Shown piece by piece: positions 2,316 through 7,387 of a stretch of 33,424 bases of DNA; position 1 is the stretch's first letter, and every line of letters starts with the position of its first letter. Location of the stretch: positions 1 through 33,424 of the forward strand of contig JAKPNF010000139.1 of assembly GCA_029548565.1 (NCBI GenBank). The letters are read 5' to 3'. Source of the stretch: Verrucomicrobiota bacterium (GTDB lineage Bacteria; Verrucomicrobiota; Verrucomicrobiia; Opitutales; JAKPNF01). Position numbers and translations under genes: made by a program. Below the pieces are notes generated by a model. That model was not told the DNA's origin, searched no databases, and saw nothing but the letters and a program-made list of their open reading frames with translations.

Positions 2316-3206
2316 TTAATGCGCGTGGTCGTGGCCGCAACTATCCGAACCTTGCGGGGCGCGCGGGGGATGGTCATCCGTAAAGACCAGCGGCGCGGGG
2401 CGTTCGCCTTGCATGCGTTCGCTTTGGGGAAGTTTTAATTCGTCTTCCAACTCGCGCAAGCGGTCGTACACAAAGTCTCTTGCGGCGTAGGGGTCGTTGG
2501 TCGGCAGGTCGTTGTAAAAATGCAGCAGGCAGTCGTAGGCTTCGCGCACTTTTCCCATTTTGACCAAAAGTTCCGCGCGGATGCGCCCGGCGAAATACGG
2601 CGCGCGCGGCAGCGCGGAGGCTTTGCCAAACCAGATCGCGGCGTTCTCGGTGTCTTTGAGCACCAGGTTGTAAATTTGCGCTTTTTCGGTGTAGGGCCAG
2701 GGGTTGTTGGGTTCGCGGGTGATGGTTTTATCCAGCAGCTCGAACGCGCGGGCGCACTGCTCCAGGCGCACCTGCTTGACCATCGGGTTTTCGCGGTCGT
2801 CGGGGTTGAGTTTCATCTCGTCGCGCAGGCGCCACACGGGGATGTCGTAGGCCAAAATGCGCGCGCCGTTGCGCCAGAAAAAGGAGTTCGTGGGGTCGAG
2901 CGTGAGCGCCAGGTGTATCATCGTTTCCGTCTTGGCGCGGTCGCGTTTTTCCCAGTCGCCGTTTCCGGAAATCCAGACGAAATCGGCGATCAGCGAGCGA
3001 AAGCCGCCGAAGACCCCCAGCAGCATCCCCTGCCCCAGCCCGTCTTTCAAATCGAGCAGGCTCAACTCCGGCTGCGCGGCGCGGACTTTTTCCCACACCT
3101 GCGTGCTCAGCGGCTTGAGCAGCGCGCCGACCAGCATCAGCACAAGCAGCGGCACGCCGAGCGCTTTGACCCAGCCCCACAGCAGCGTTTTCCAGTTTTC
3201 GTACAT
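2316..3206 (-). CDS. Membrane-anchored TPR-like repeat protein with His-rich C-terminus
   Basis: N-terminal TM segment (LGVPLLVLMLVGALL), helical repeats resembling TPR, tail SCGHDHAH. Start set at MYENWKTLL to avoid overlap with the upstream gene. Confidence 0.6.
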   Translation of the reverse strand: MYENWKTLLWGWVKALGVPLLVLMLVGALLKPLSTQVWEKVRAAQPELSLLDLKDGLGQGMLLGVFGGFRSLIADFVWISGNGDWEKRDRAKTETMIHLALTLDPTNSFFWRNGARILAYDIPVWRLRDEMKLNPDDRENPMVKQVRLEQCARAFELLDKTITREPNNPWPYTEKAQIYNLVLKDTENAAIWFGKASALPRAPYFAGRIRAELLVKMGKVREAYDCLLHFYNDLPTNDPYAARDFVYDRLRELEDELKLPQSERMQGERPAPLVFTDDHPPRAPQGSDSCGHDHAH

Positions 3207-3216
3207 CGGGGGAAAA

Positions 3217-4044
3217 TTAAATTTCGCGGCGGCGGAAGCTGAAGACGGCCAGCCCCAGATAGACCAGCACGTACACAAGCGAGAACAGCGTCACCGACCC
3301 CGCAAGGCTCCAGGGCACCCCGGCGTTGGCGCTGAAGACCATCGGCACGAGCAGATTGTAGTTTTGGAAATTCGGGAAGATCAGTGCCACGTGCTCGACC
3401 GCCCAGGTGTACCACGAGGGATCCATTCTTGTGACCACCTCAATCGCCACGTACTGAATCTGGCAAATGATCAGCACCATGAAGGAAATGACCACGCTGA
3501 ACAAGTTGGTGTTGGAAAAACTCGCGAAAAACAGCGTCAGCGATATCAGCACGCAGTACTTGAGCCACTGCGTCCAGCCAAAGACAAACAGTCCAACGTA
3601 GTTAATGATGCGCCGCCCCTGAAACAGCTCGGCGTATTGCGCGACGATCTGGCTTTCGCGGTAATATAAAAACGCGCCCAGCACGATTATCATCAGCAAA
3701 ATGAACACGCCCAGCAGCGCGGCGACCCCGCAGAATTTACCGGCCAAAAACTCCCAGCGGTGCACGGGCTTGGCCAGAATCGTGAGCGCCGTGCGGTTTT
3801 CGATCTCGGCGAAAAACAACTGCGCCATCATCACGATCGACAAAATGGAGCCGAAAAACACGATCGCCCCCGAACCGAAGTCCGCGATGAACTTCAACTC
3901 CGAGGAGCCGAAGTCAAAGCGCTGGAAATACAGCACCGAGCCAAGCAGCCCCAGCGCGATCAGCGCCAGAAAAAGAAAAAACTTTTGGCGCACGGCCTCC
4001 AAAAAAGTGTTGCCGGCGATGCGGCAGATGCGAAACAGGCTCAT
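3217..4044 (-). CDS. ABC-2 type transporter permease
   Basis: 275 aa, multiple TM helices; N-terminus RICRIAGNTFLEAVRQKFFLFLALIALGLL; gene lies immediately after an ABC ATPase. Confidence 0.8.
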   Translation of the reverse strand: MSLFRICRIAGNTFLEAVRQKFFLFLALIALGLLGSVLYFQRFDFGSSELKFIADFGSGAIVFFGSILSIVMMAQLFFAEIENRTALTILAKPVHRWEFLAGKFCGVAALLGVFILLMIIVLGAFLYYRESQIVAQYAELFQGRRIINYVGLFVFGWTQWLKYCVLISLTLFFASFSNTNLFSVVISFMVLIICQIQYVAIEVVTRMDPSWYTWAVEHVALIFPNFQNYNLLVPMVFSANAGVPWSLAGSVTLFSLVYVLVYLGLAVFSFRRREI

Positions 4045-4050
4045 AAAAAA

Positions 4051-4923
4051 TCAGTCGCGGGTTTTCGTGTCTTCGAGCGAGGGGGCCACCTTTGACAAAA
4101 AGAGGCTGTCCAGCGCGATGCGATCGGGCGCCGCGCCCAGAAATTCGCCGCCCTCGCTGGCGATGAGCGCGCGGATTTGCGCGAGCGTCTCGGGCTTTAG
4201 ATTGCGGGCGGAAATGTTGGTGGTGTCGTGCTTTTCCAAAAGGTCGTCCACCTTGCCCTCGACGACCTTGTGGCCCTTGTCCAAGATGACAATATTGTCG
4301 CACACGCCCTCCACCTGCGCCAGCAAATGCGAGCAAAGGATAATAGTCTTGCCGCGCGCCTTTAGCTCCAAAATCATCTTGGCGATGCTCGCCGAGCCGA
4401 TGGGGTCGACGCCCGCCGTGGGCTCGTCCAAGATCACCAGCCGCGGGTCGTGCACCACCGCCTGCGCGATGCCGATGCGCTGCAACATGCCCTTGGAATA
4501 CGTGCCCACGCGCCGGTCGCTGGCGTGCTGCATGTCGACCAGTTCGAGGACTTCCTGCGTGCGGCGCTCGCGCTGTTTTTTGGGCACACCGCACACGGCG
4601 GCGTAGAACATCACGAGTTCCTTGCCCGTCAGATAACGGTAAAAATACGGGGCTTCCGGCAGGTAGCCCACGTCCACGCGCGAGCGCACCTTTTCGCTCG
4701 GCACGCCATAGACCTCGCAAGTGCCGCGCGTGGCACGCAGCAGGCCAAGGACGACCTTCAGCGTCGTGCTCTTGCCCGAACCGTTGGGGCCCAGCAGGCC
4801 GAAAATCTGGTTGTCCTTCACCTCGAAGGAAAGGTTCTCGACCGCGCGCAATTTCAAACCGCGCAGGCCGAGCCGAAAGTCCTTCGTCAGGCCTTCGATT
4901 TTAATGGCGGGGGTGCTCGTCAT
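4051..4923 (-). CDS. ABC transporter ATP-binding protein
   Basis: Walker A GPNGSGKST, signature YSKGMLQRIGIAQA, Walker B LVILDEP, H-loop CSHLL. Confidence 0.95.
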   Translation of the reverse strand: MTSTPAIKIEGLTKDFRLGLRGLKLRAVENLSFEVKDNQIFGLLGPNGSGKSTTLKVVLGLLRATRGTCEVYGVPSEKVRSRVDVGYLPEAPYFYRYLTGKELVMFYAAVCGVPKKQRERRTQEVLELVDMQHASDRRVGTYSKGMLQRIGIAQAVVHDPRLVILDEPTAGVDPIGSASIAKMILELKARGKTIILCSHLLAQVEGVCDNIVILDKGHKVVEGKVDDLLEKHDTTNISARNLKPETLAQIRALIASEGGEFLGAAPDRIALDSLFLSKVAPSLEDTKTRD

Positions 4924-4948
4924 ACCGTTTTTATTCTAAAAAAAACGC

Positions 4949-5236
4949 CTAGCGCAGCGCAAACCCTTTGCATTGGGGCTTGTCTATTTTTTGGGAATCG
5001 ACCTGGGTTTTTTTAATAAAGTGCCCGAGATCGTCACACACTTGGGACAAAAACGCCTCGGCCTGGTCTTCGCGCCCTTCAATCAAAAGATGCACCCGGC
5101 CGTCCGGCAAATTCTCCACGTGGCCGACGATCTCGTACTCGCGCGCGATTTTTGCGGCATGGTAACGAAACCCGACGCCCTGCACGCGGCCTTCAAACCA
5201 CGCCTGCAAGCGCACGCAACTTTGGGGTGTGTTCAT
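4949..5236 (-). CDS. acyP: Acylphosphatase
   Basis: 95 aa; FEGRVQGVGFRYHAAKIAREYEIVGHVENLPDGRVHLLIEG is the canonical acylphosphatase signature. Confidence 0.92.
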   Translation of the reverse strand: MNTPQSCVRLQAWFEGRVQGVGFRYHAAKIAREYEIVGHVENLPDGRVHLLIEGREDQAEAFLSQVCDDLGHFIKKTQVDSQKIDKPQCKGFALR

Positions 5237-5266
5237 AGAGTATCTATCTGGTTTATAGTAAAGCGT

Positions 5267-6010
5267 ATGACCCCCTCAACCCTTTTTTATATGGACGGGG
5301 CAGTTTTCCCCTCTTACAGTGAGATTATGGAAGGGCCGCACGAGTGCCGCCCCAAGTTTTATGACATGAACCACTTTCCCGATAATTCTTCAGACTCTGA
5401 CTTTGACGGCGGCGAACTTGCCTGGAACGAGCACGATTGGCGAAACTATCTCAATAAAAACGATTCCGACATCGCCCGGTTTTCAAAACTCTATTTTGAA
5501 AACATCGGCCGCGCGGATCGTTTGGACACGGTCGCGCACCTGATGCGCTGGGACAAAAACGACTGGCTGCTAAGCGAGGGCGAAACAAGCGAGCCGTCGA
5601 TCGAGTCCAAGGAAAATTACGAGCCTTACACCCTGCACTGCCAGCCGGTCTTTATCGTCACGCGCGCGCTGTACCAAAAACTGCACGCATGGACGATCGA
5701 ATACATGGGCGCGCGCCCGGCCGAGGCCGTCGCGTTGCATGTGCTCAGCCGCACTTTCGACGAAGGCCACTACAACGCCTGCATGGCCTACGCCGCGCTG
5801 GACATCGGCGAATACATTTTGGCGATCTGCCACTTGAAGCAGGCGATGAGCCACATCAACAACTCCCTCGGCGTGCTGCACGAGCTGCCGCCAAACAGCT
5901 TCGCCCCCAACGCGCACACGCTGCTGTTCGACCTGCGCGAGCTGTGCCTGCGCGTGATCGCGGATTGCCGCGAGGAAAACCTCCGCCGCTTAAACGGCGA
6001 GAACGATTGA
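5267..6010 (+). CDS. Conserved/hypothetical protein
   Basis: 247-aa ORF from ATG 5267 (MTPSTLFYMDGAVFPSYSEIMEG...), GC-rich coding character; no family recognised. Confidence 0.6.
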   Translation: MTPSTLFYMDGAVFPSYSEIMEGPHECRPKFYDMNHFPDNSSDSDFDGGELAWNEHDWRNYLNKNDSDIARFSKLYFENIGRADRLDTVAHLMRWDKNDWLLSEGETSEPSIESKENYEPYTLHCQPVFIVTRALYQKLHAWTIEYMGARPAEAVALHVLSRTFDEGHYNACMAYAALDIGEYILAICHLKQAMSHINNSLGVLHELPPNSFAPNAHTLLFDLRELCLRVIADCREENLRRLNGEND

Positions 6011-6064: not shown

Positions 6065-7387
6065 ATGATGAGACATACCCTCGCATTTCTATCGGTGTGC
6101 GCCCTTACGCTCTCGGGCGTCGTCGCCCAAACAGACGCAGTCGTCCTTGAGGCAAAAGTGACCCAAGTCATGCTTGGCGCGGTTGATATGCGTCAGGCCA
6201 ATTTCTGGATTCGCACGCAAGACGGGCAGGATGCCTTTACGGTGAATCTCATTCCCAAAGGAGACACCAAGGCGCAAAAGAAAAGCTTTGGCCCCTTTAA
6301 GGCAAAGGAGGCAGATGCTTTTATCGTCAAGGTCTGCGCGGGTCCGCTGGAACCCGGGACAAAATACGCCTACGAAATTTCCAACATAAAAGGCACGCTG
6401 GAAACCCCTGCCAATTACCGCGACCGCACGCCGCCGCCCAAATATACCGTGGCTCTCGGCGGCGGGCACTACGACAACGACCCGGACTACGACCCGCCTT
6501 TCAAAACCCCCGGCAGCGCCTATCATATTTTTGAGAGCATCACGCACAAAAAGCCGCAACTGATGGTGTGGCTGGGCGACGCCACGATCTTGCGCGAGGG
6601 CGACTGGGGCTCGCGCAGCGGCATTTTTGAGCGCCACAAAAAAGCGCGCGCCACGAAAGAACTGCAGGGCTTGCTTTCGAGCGTGCCCAATGTCGCCGTC
6701 ATCGGCGCGGGCGAAACGGCCAACGGCGACCGCTTCCTGTGGAACATCGCCGACATGAAGGACGCCTTCGAGCGTTACTGGGCAAACCCCTCCTTCGGCG
6801 TGAGCGCCGCCGAGGGCAACCTCGCCACGCAGTTGCGTTTCAACGACGCCGAATTTTTCCTGCTCGACGACCGTAGCCAGCGCGACATGCGCGACCAGTT
6901 CAACCGCTCCAACACCTATCTGGGCAAAGCCCAGCGCGACTGGCTGATCGAGGCGCTCGCCCGCAGCACCGCCACTTTCAAAATAATCGTCAGCAACACC
7001 TCGCTGCTCAACCCTGTTCAGGAAAACAACGACCCCGTCACCGTCCCCAACACCCGCGAGGACTTTTTAAAAACCCTGCGCCTGCGCGACATCAAGGGCG
7101 TCTTCTTCATTTCCGGCAACCGCGCCGCGGGCGAGACGACAAAGTTTGTGCGCGCCAACGGTTACGACCTGTACGACTTCTGCGTCGGCCCCCTGACCGC
7201 CCGCGCCGCCACCGCCCCCTCCAGCATGAACCACCTGCGCATGCCCGGCTCCACCACCGTCGGCAACCAATTCGCCACCCTCACCTTCGACGGCCCCGAA
7301 GACGCCCGCACAGCAACCTTCACCGCCTACGACAGCACCGGCGCCGAACTCTACACCCTCACCCTAAAGCACGAGGGTTTGCAGTAA
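6065..7387 (+). CDS. Secreted PhoD-like metallophosphatase-fold protein, probably degenerate active site
   Basis: Signal peptide MMRHTLAFLSVCALTLSGVVAQ; PhoD-like landmarks AYHIFESITHKKPQLMVWLGDATILREGDW, FERYWANPSFG, AEFFLLDDRSQRD, YLGKAQRDWLIEALARSTATFKIIVSNTSLL. Confidence 0.7.
   Translation: MMRHTLAFLSVCALTLSGVVAQTDAVVLEAKVTQVMLGAVDMRQANFWIRTQDGQDAFTVNLIPKGDTKAQKKSFGPFKAKEADAFIVKVCAGPLEPGTKYAYEISNIKGTLETPANYRDRTPPPKYTVALGGGHYDNDPDYDPPFKTPGSAYHIFESITHKKPQLMVWLGDATILREGDWGSRSGIFERHKKARATKELQGLLSSVPNVAVIGAGETANGDRFLWNIADMKDAFERYWANPSFGVSAAEGNLATQLRFNDAEFFLLDDRSQRDMRDQFNRSNTYLGKAQRDWLIEALARSTATFKIIVSNTSLLNPVQENNDPVTVPNTREDFLKTLRLRDIKGVFFISGNRAAGETTKFVRANGYDLYDFCVGPLTARAATAPSSMNHLRMPGSTTVGNQFATLTFDGPEDARTATFTAYDSTGAELYTLTLKHEGLQ

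Follow-up and report, generated by a model that had tools for sequence, protein, structure and literature searches.

Judged by its sequence, the 440-aa protein encoded at positions 6065-7387 of the window (the whole stretch of 33,424 nucleotides analysed here, from a Verrucomicrobiota bacterium) is a PhoD-fold protein, related to PhoD by descent, in which most ligands of the metal site have been lost. It is probably a secreted pseudoenzyme of the PhoD/purple-acid-phosphatase fold, that is, a former metal-dependent phosphatase that now serves as a binding or scaffold protein. Metal-dependent phosphoester hydrolysis would have been given up, and a binding or scaffold role outside the cytoplasm may be what remains. 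The loss is shared by relatives that evolution has kept intact and, thus, the whole clade probably represents an old, conserved, and working "dead enzyme" that binds rather than cuts. The features on which this reading is built are collected in Table 1.

Table 1. Features of the pseudo-PhoD locus, with positions in the window
Feature	Position	Strand	Remarks
Consecutive genes: acylphosphatase, ABC transporter ATPase, ABC-2 permease, TPR-like protein	2316-5236	-	Divergent from the partner gene
Gene of 214-aa uncharacterised protein (partner gene)	5366-6010	+	Stops 54 bases before the pseudo-PhoD start
Pseudo-PhoD gene	6065-7387	+	440 aa; N-terminus resembling a signal peptide, beta-rich N-terminal domain, and PhoD-fold domain that lacks most metal ligands
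ALGGGHY, aa 130-136	6452-6472	+	Aligns with PhoD GSC; Gly134 instead of the Fe ligand Cys180
WLGDATILREGDW, aa 169-181	6569-6607	+	Asp207 position kept (D172); Tyr210 position is Ile175
VAVIGAGETANGDRF, aa 210-224	6692-6736	+	At the place of WDDHDYGPN; Asp265 to Gly214, Asp266 to Ala215, His267 to Gly216
LLDDRSQR	6860-6883	+	Non-ligand block also present in canonical PhoD relatives; D268 invariant in these and in the clade
FFISGNRAAGETTKF, aa 347-361	7103-7147	+	Contains the SGNRAAGE block
SGNRAAGE	7112-7135	+	At the place of SGDxH; Asp436 to Asn352, His438 to Ala354

The relationship to PhoD is carried mainly by profile comparisons. The Pfam PhoD model (PF09423) matches the protein at 44.2 bits, above the cut-off of 27, with the match confined to aa 257-387, while hhalign aligns the clade profile with canonical PhoD at 100% probability over 406 columns. 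Each of the nine proteins in alignment A1 likewise matches PhoD (E <= 0.01), and the best solved-structure match by profile search is Bacillus PhoD (2yeq); as a direct sequence query of the PDB, the single 440-aa protein gave no useful match. Two AlphaFold models, built from two shallow alignments, are of low confidence (pLDDT 52 and 59, pTM 0.57 and 0.66), sufficing for fold recognition and being too weak for pocket measurement. With both models, Foldseek ranks 2yeq first among solved structures, ahead of purple acid phosphatases. VPS29 is found among the weak fold matches. The TM-scores to 2yeq are below 0.5 and, therefore, the models back the fold assignment only jointly with the profile evidence. 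Membership of the PhoD family by descent is consequently read from a score above the Pfam cut-off, together with full-length profile and fold similarity, the fold part of which comes from these low-confidence models. The original prediction of a secreted PhoD-fold protein agrees with these matches and with an N-terminus that, judged by eye, is signal-peptide-like; of the structural superposition that it had proposed, the fold assignment held in both models, whereas the pocket was not seen directly at this confidence.

In B. subtilis PhoD, the ligands with mutants are Cys180, Asp207, Asp265, Asp266, Asn271, Asn272, and Asp436, and a tyrosine ligand has been described as well (PMC4223295). Nine positions were scored, namely Cys180, Asp207, Tyr210, Asp265, Asp266, Asn271, Asn272, Asp436, and His438, of which Tyr210 and His438 were placed via the chain numbering of 2yeq (the number in the paper minus 56) and the tyrosine ligand of that paper. 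In multiple and profile alignments, the three odd blocks of the window copy align with the GSC, WDDHDYGPN, and SGDxH motifs of PhoD, and the residues found are Gly (180), Asp (207), Ile (210), Gly (265), Ala (266), a gap (271), Asn (272), Asn (436), and Ala (438); His267, outside the nine, is replaced by Gly. Two of the nine ligand positions are thus kept in the window copy, the second of which (Asn272) hinges on the placement of a short gap. The motifs quoted in the original prediction are all present, with coordinates right to within a few bases, and its claim that Asp/His ligands are replaced in two blocks understated the loss.

The ligand set of PhoD enzymes (Cys or Asp, GDxxY, WDDHD..NN, and GDxH) is, hence, largely missing from the window copy and from the clade, in which zero to two of the nine positions are kept in all 36 members. 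Purple acid phosphatases are the sister group of PhoD (PMC4223295), and they provide the second-best fold matches. However, the Fe-site ligands that they have in common with PhoD, on which the comparison was scored, are lost in the window copy except for Asp207, so that the protein does not carry the purple-acid-phosphatase ligand set. Even this Asp, which lies in the LGD block and was not listed in the original prediction, is rarely retained: 34 of the 36 clade members have Asn or a different residue there. Residue 353, beside the lost Asp436 and His438 in the SGNRAAGE block, is a clade-specific basic residue (Lys in 33 of 36, Arg in the window copy), and E357 in the same block is invariant within the clade. 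Moreover, R177 and D180 in WLGDATILREGDW are near-invariant across both the clade and the canonical relatives.

The genome that carries the gene (2.14 Mb, 97% complete) has no second PhoD-family gene at the cut-offs used. A first search covered 52 genomes from the same order and gave matches in 26 of them. When the A1 profile, made from nine close relatives, was searched in 177 genomes of the order, it recovered 36 full-length orthologs (the window copy included) at 390-694 bits, one per genome, with all other matches at or below 320 bits; an additional copy, L099, is partial, being cut off by the edge of its contig. These orthologs belong to families f1 (that of the window), f11, f17, and f21, and the gene is single-copy in every genome with a match in f11 and f21. 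Among canonical relatives, all nine ligand positions are kept in 28 of 29 proteins and eight in the remaining one. Ligand-poor proteins also occur in f22, where four proteins keep none of the nine positions, and in f3 (L012). Wider searches, through 384 genomes at class level and 388 at phylum level, in which few candidates were scored per genome under strict cut-offs so that members elsewhere are possible, gave a single match above 390 bits outside the order, L128; its site is intact and, thus, it was rejected as a clade member despite its score. It comes from another order of the class and is the nearest canonical relative found. A scan of genome contigs returned three distant canonical PhoDs only, and a scan of viral contigs with the clade profile found no relative. 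PhoD-like domains are nevertheless encoded on viral contigs (L120-L127), embedded in long proteins (about 650-1280 aa); the four that were aligned show a WDNHD-type motif. In two other PhoD relatives, L017 and L118, Gly takes the place of the Cys in the GSC block and the remaining ligand blocks appear intact, which possibly represents an intermediate or a different iron site.

Trees were built without the ligand blocks. In the first, ligand-poor and canonical proteins are split at one branch (SH-aLRT 99), and the same split is recovered in the second (ultrafast bootstrap 100, SH-aLRT 100), with one state change, recovered in every bootstrap tree sampled. The alternative that several families lost the ligands independently was rejected, since the tree needs one change only. 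L128 is the nearest canonical sister of the ligand-poor clade, the f22 proteins nest inside the clade, and f11, f17, and f21 each form a monophyletic group, as expected under vertical inheritance; L012 has a long branch and an unsure placement, and was omitted from the second tree. Pairwise dN/dS values (Nei-Gojobori) for clade pairs with measurable dS range from 0.05 to 0.34, most of them near 0.1 and the highest being two f21 pairs (0.22 and 0.34), compared with 0.077 and 0.035 for canonical pairs; some pairs are synonymously saturated, and the figures come from clade pairs, the window copy having no close relative. The single-clade tree with one change and the mostly low dN/dS indicate, at the level of sequence comparison, one ancestral loss of the ligand set followed by vertical inheritance under purifying selection. 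Catalytic residues lost clade-wide beside ligand-complete canonical relatives, together with purifying selection, are what a pseudoenzyme should present, and the original suggestion of a pseudo-phosphatase repurposed for binding is supported in this respect, its binding part being the more conjectural.

The window copy is divergent and sits on a long branch in the tree, as a decaying gene, or one whose odd blocks arise from sequencing or frame errors, might. However, its reading frame is open and without stops, its GC3 resembles that of neighbouring genes, and the same loss is found in 35 other genomes at low dN/dS, which makes decay or error highly improbable. Chance or sequencing error is rejected because the replaced blocks recur in the 35 orthologs besides the window copy, and a frameshift because no hidden DDHD or SGDxH is present in the other two forward frames of 6641-7180.

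Conservation within the clade is unevenly distributed. The DDHD block is more variable than the protein background (2.32 versus 1.86 bits). The SGD block has a variability near that of canonical PhoD (1.18 versus 1.05 bits), but Gly and Lys replace the PhoD Asp and Val. Clade-specific near-invariant residues include P123, S301, A303, K306, N316-P317, K353, N389, P394, and E412. These new residues and the conserved, altered SGD block fit a retained function other than the original catalysis and, judging by their places in the PhoD motifs, the clade-specific residues would line one pocket. Under the proposed mechanism, after the single ancestral loss of the Fe/Ca ligand set and its vertical inheritance, the former active-site loops would have been remodelled into GGx, LGN/LGD, NP, and SGGKxxGE with its conserved Lys/Arg. 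The remodelled loops could hold a ligand or partner, possibly anionic or phosphorylated, without metal. Against the pseudoenzyme reading, it can be argued that the residues may have been conserved for the sake of folding and not of binding, and that the window copy, on its long branch, retains Asp207 and possibly Asn272.

The protein might also have remained an enzyme that uses the same pocket, either with an altered metal site or with chemistry that needs no metal, given that the pocket blocks are partly conserved with near-invariant Lys and Glu, and that acidic residues occur in HYDNDPDYD of the window copy besides the retained Asp207. Nevertheless, the clade has no conserved His or Cys, and E387 and E412 are its only new near-invariant acidic residues, since D180, D261, D268, E330, and E357 are common to the canonical PhoD relatives and occupy non-ligand positions. 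As the HYDNDPDYD acidic run is, moreover, only partly kept among orthologs, continued catalysis seems quite unlikely, and the changed metal site offered by the original prediction as an alternative to binding is the less likely of its two options.

VPS29 keeps the phosphoesterase fold, has given up catalysis, and plays a scaffold role, as do other pseudoenzymes of the wider metallophosphoesterase fold. Such precedents, the presence of VPS29 among the weak fold matches, and the DDHD block, now more variable than background, could mean that the conserved part of the clade proteins is a protein-protein contact surface and that no ligand binds in the former pocket. This seems fairly unlikely, as the SGD-derived block is as conserved as in canonical relatives, with residues of its own. 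The secreted pseudoenzyme with a remodelled binding site, thus preferred here, would resemble VPS29-type proteins in having a phosphoesterase fold presumably without catalysis and what may be a binding or scaffold role. However, VPS29 is eukaryotic, intracellular, and from another branch of the superfamily, whereas the clade consists of secreted bacterial proteins descended from PhoD. With PhoD itself (PF09423; 2yeq), the clade has in common the overall fold, the domain order, secretion, and many non-ligand residues, but it is devoid of most Fe/Ca ligands and has acquired near-invariant residues of its own at the former site and near it. Among the open-access papers searched with the terms used, no description of a PhoD pseudoenzyme was found. 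The clade would offer a clear natural example of a single switch from enzyme to pseudoenzyme with long conservation afterwards, and canonical relatives are available for comparison. Moreover, phoD genes are a widely used marker of organic-phosphorus use in soil and marine studies, and the window copy scores above the Pfam cut-off for PhoD although it has lost most catalytic metal ligands; thus, clade proteins could be miscounted as phosphatases.

Strand and spacing suggest that the pseudo-PhoD gene is probably co-transcribed with the conserved upstream gene of the 214-aa protein. The 214-aa family adjoins the clade gene or sits one gene away in 32 of 37 loci (the window counted), and is also found upstream of the f22 copies and, across a gap, of the f3 copy, while in four f21 genomes of one genus the partner gene lies elsewhere. 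The family is present in 146 of the 177 genomes of the order, nearly always once, including genomes of about 0.8 Mb without a PhoD match, and it matches no family in Pfam or NCBIfam. No signal peptide is apparent in the 214-aa partner and, therefore, direct contact with the secreted pseudo-PhoD is not assumed. A more specific proposal, considered unlikely, is that these order-restricted, secreted, metal-free PhoD descendants have turned the Fe/Ca site into a Lys pocket that senses or carries a phosphorylated or anionic ligand and is functionally linked to the upstream gene.

According to orthologs, the partner gene starts at 5366; the open reading frame called at 4973-6010 (+) is too long at its 5' end, since 4973-5365 overlaps the acylphosphatase gene at 4949-5236 (-), and was rejected in that form. 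Eight f11 loci (L064, L065, L069, L073, L075, L078, L079, and L081) have one extra gene between the partner and pseudo-PhoD, and related open reading frames occur in L155, L159, and L165. This extra gene encodes about 260-310 aa, and its member L165 weakly matches sigma-70 region 4, below the cut-off. The acylphosphatase/ABC-2 layout on the opposite strand upstream is kept in several families of the order.
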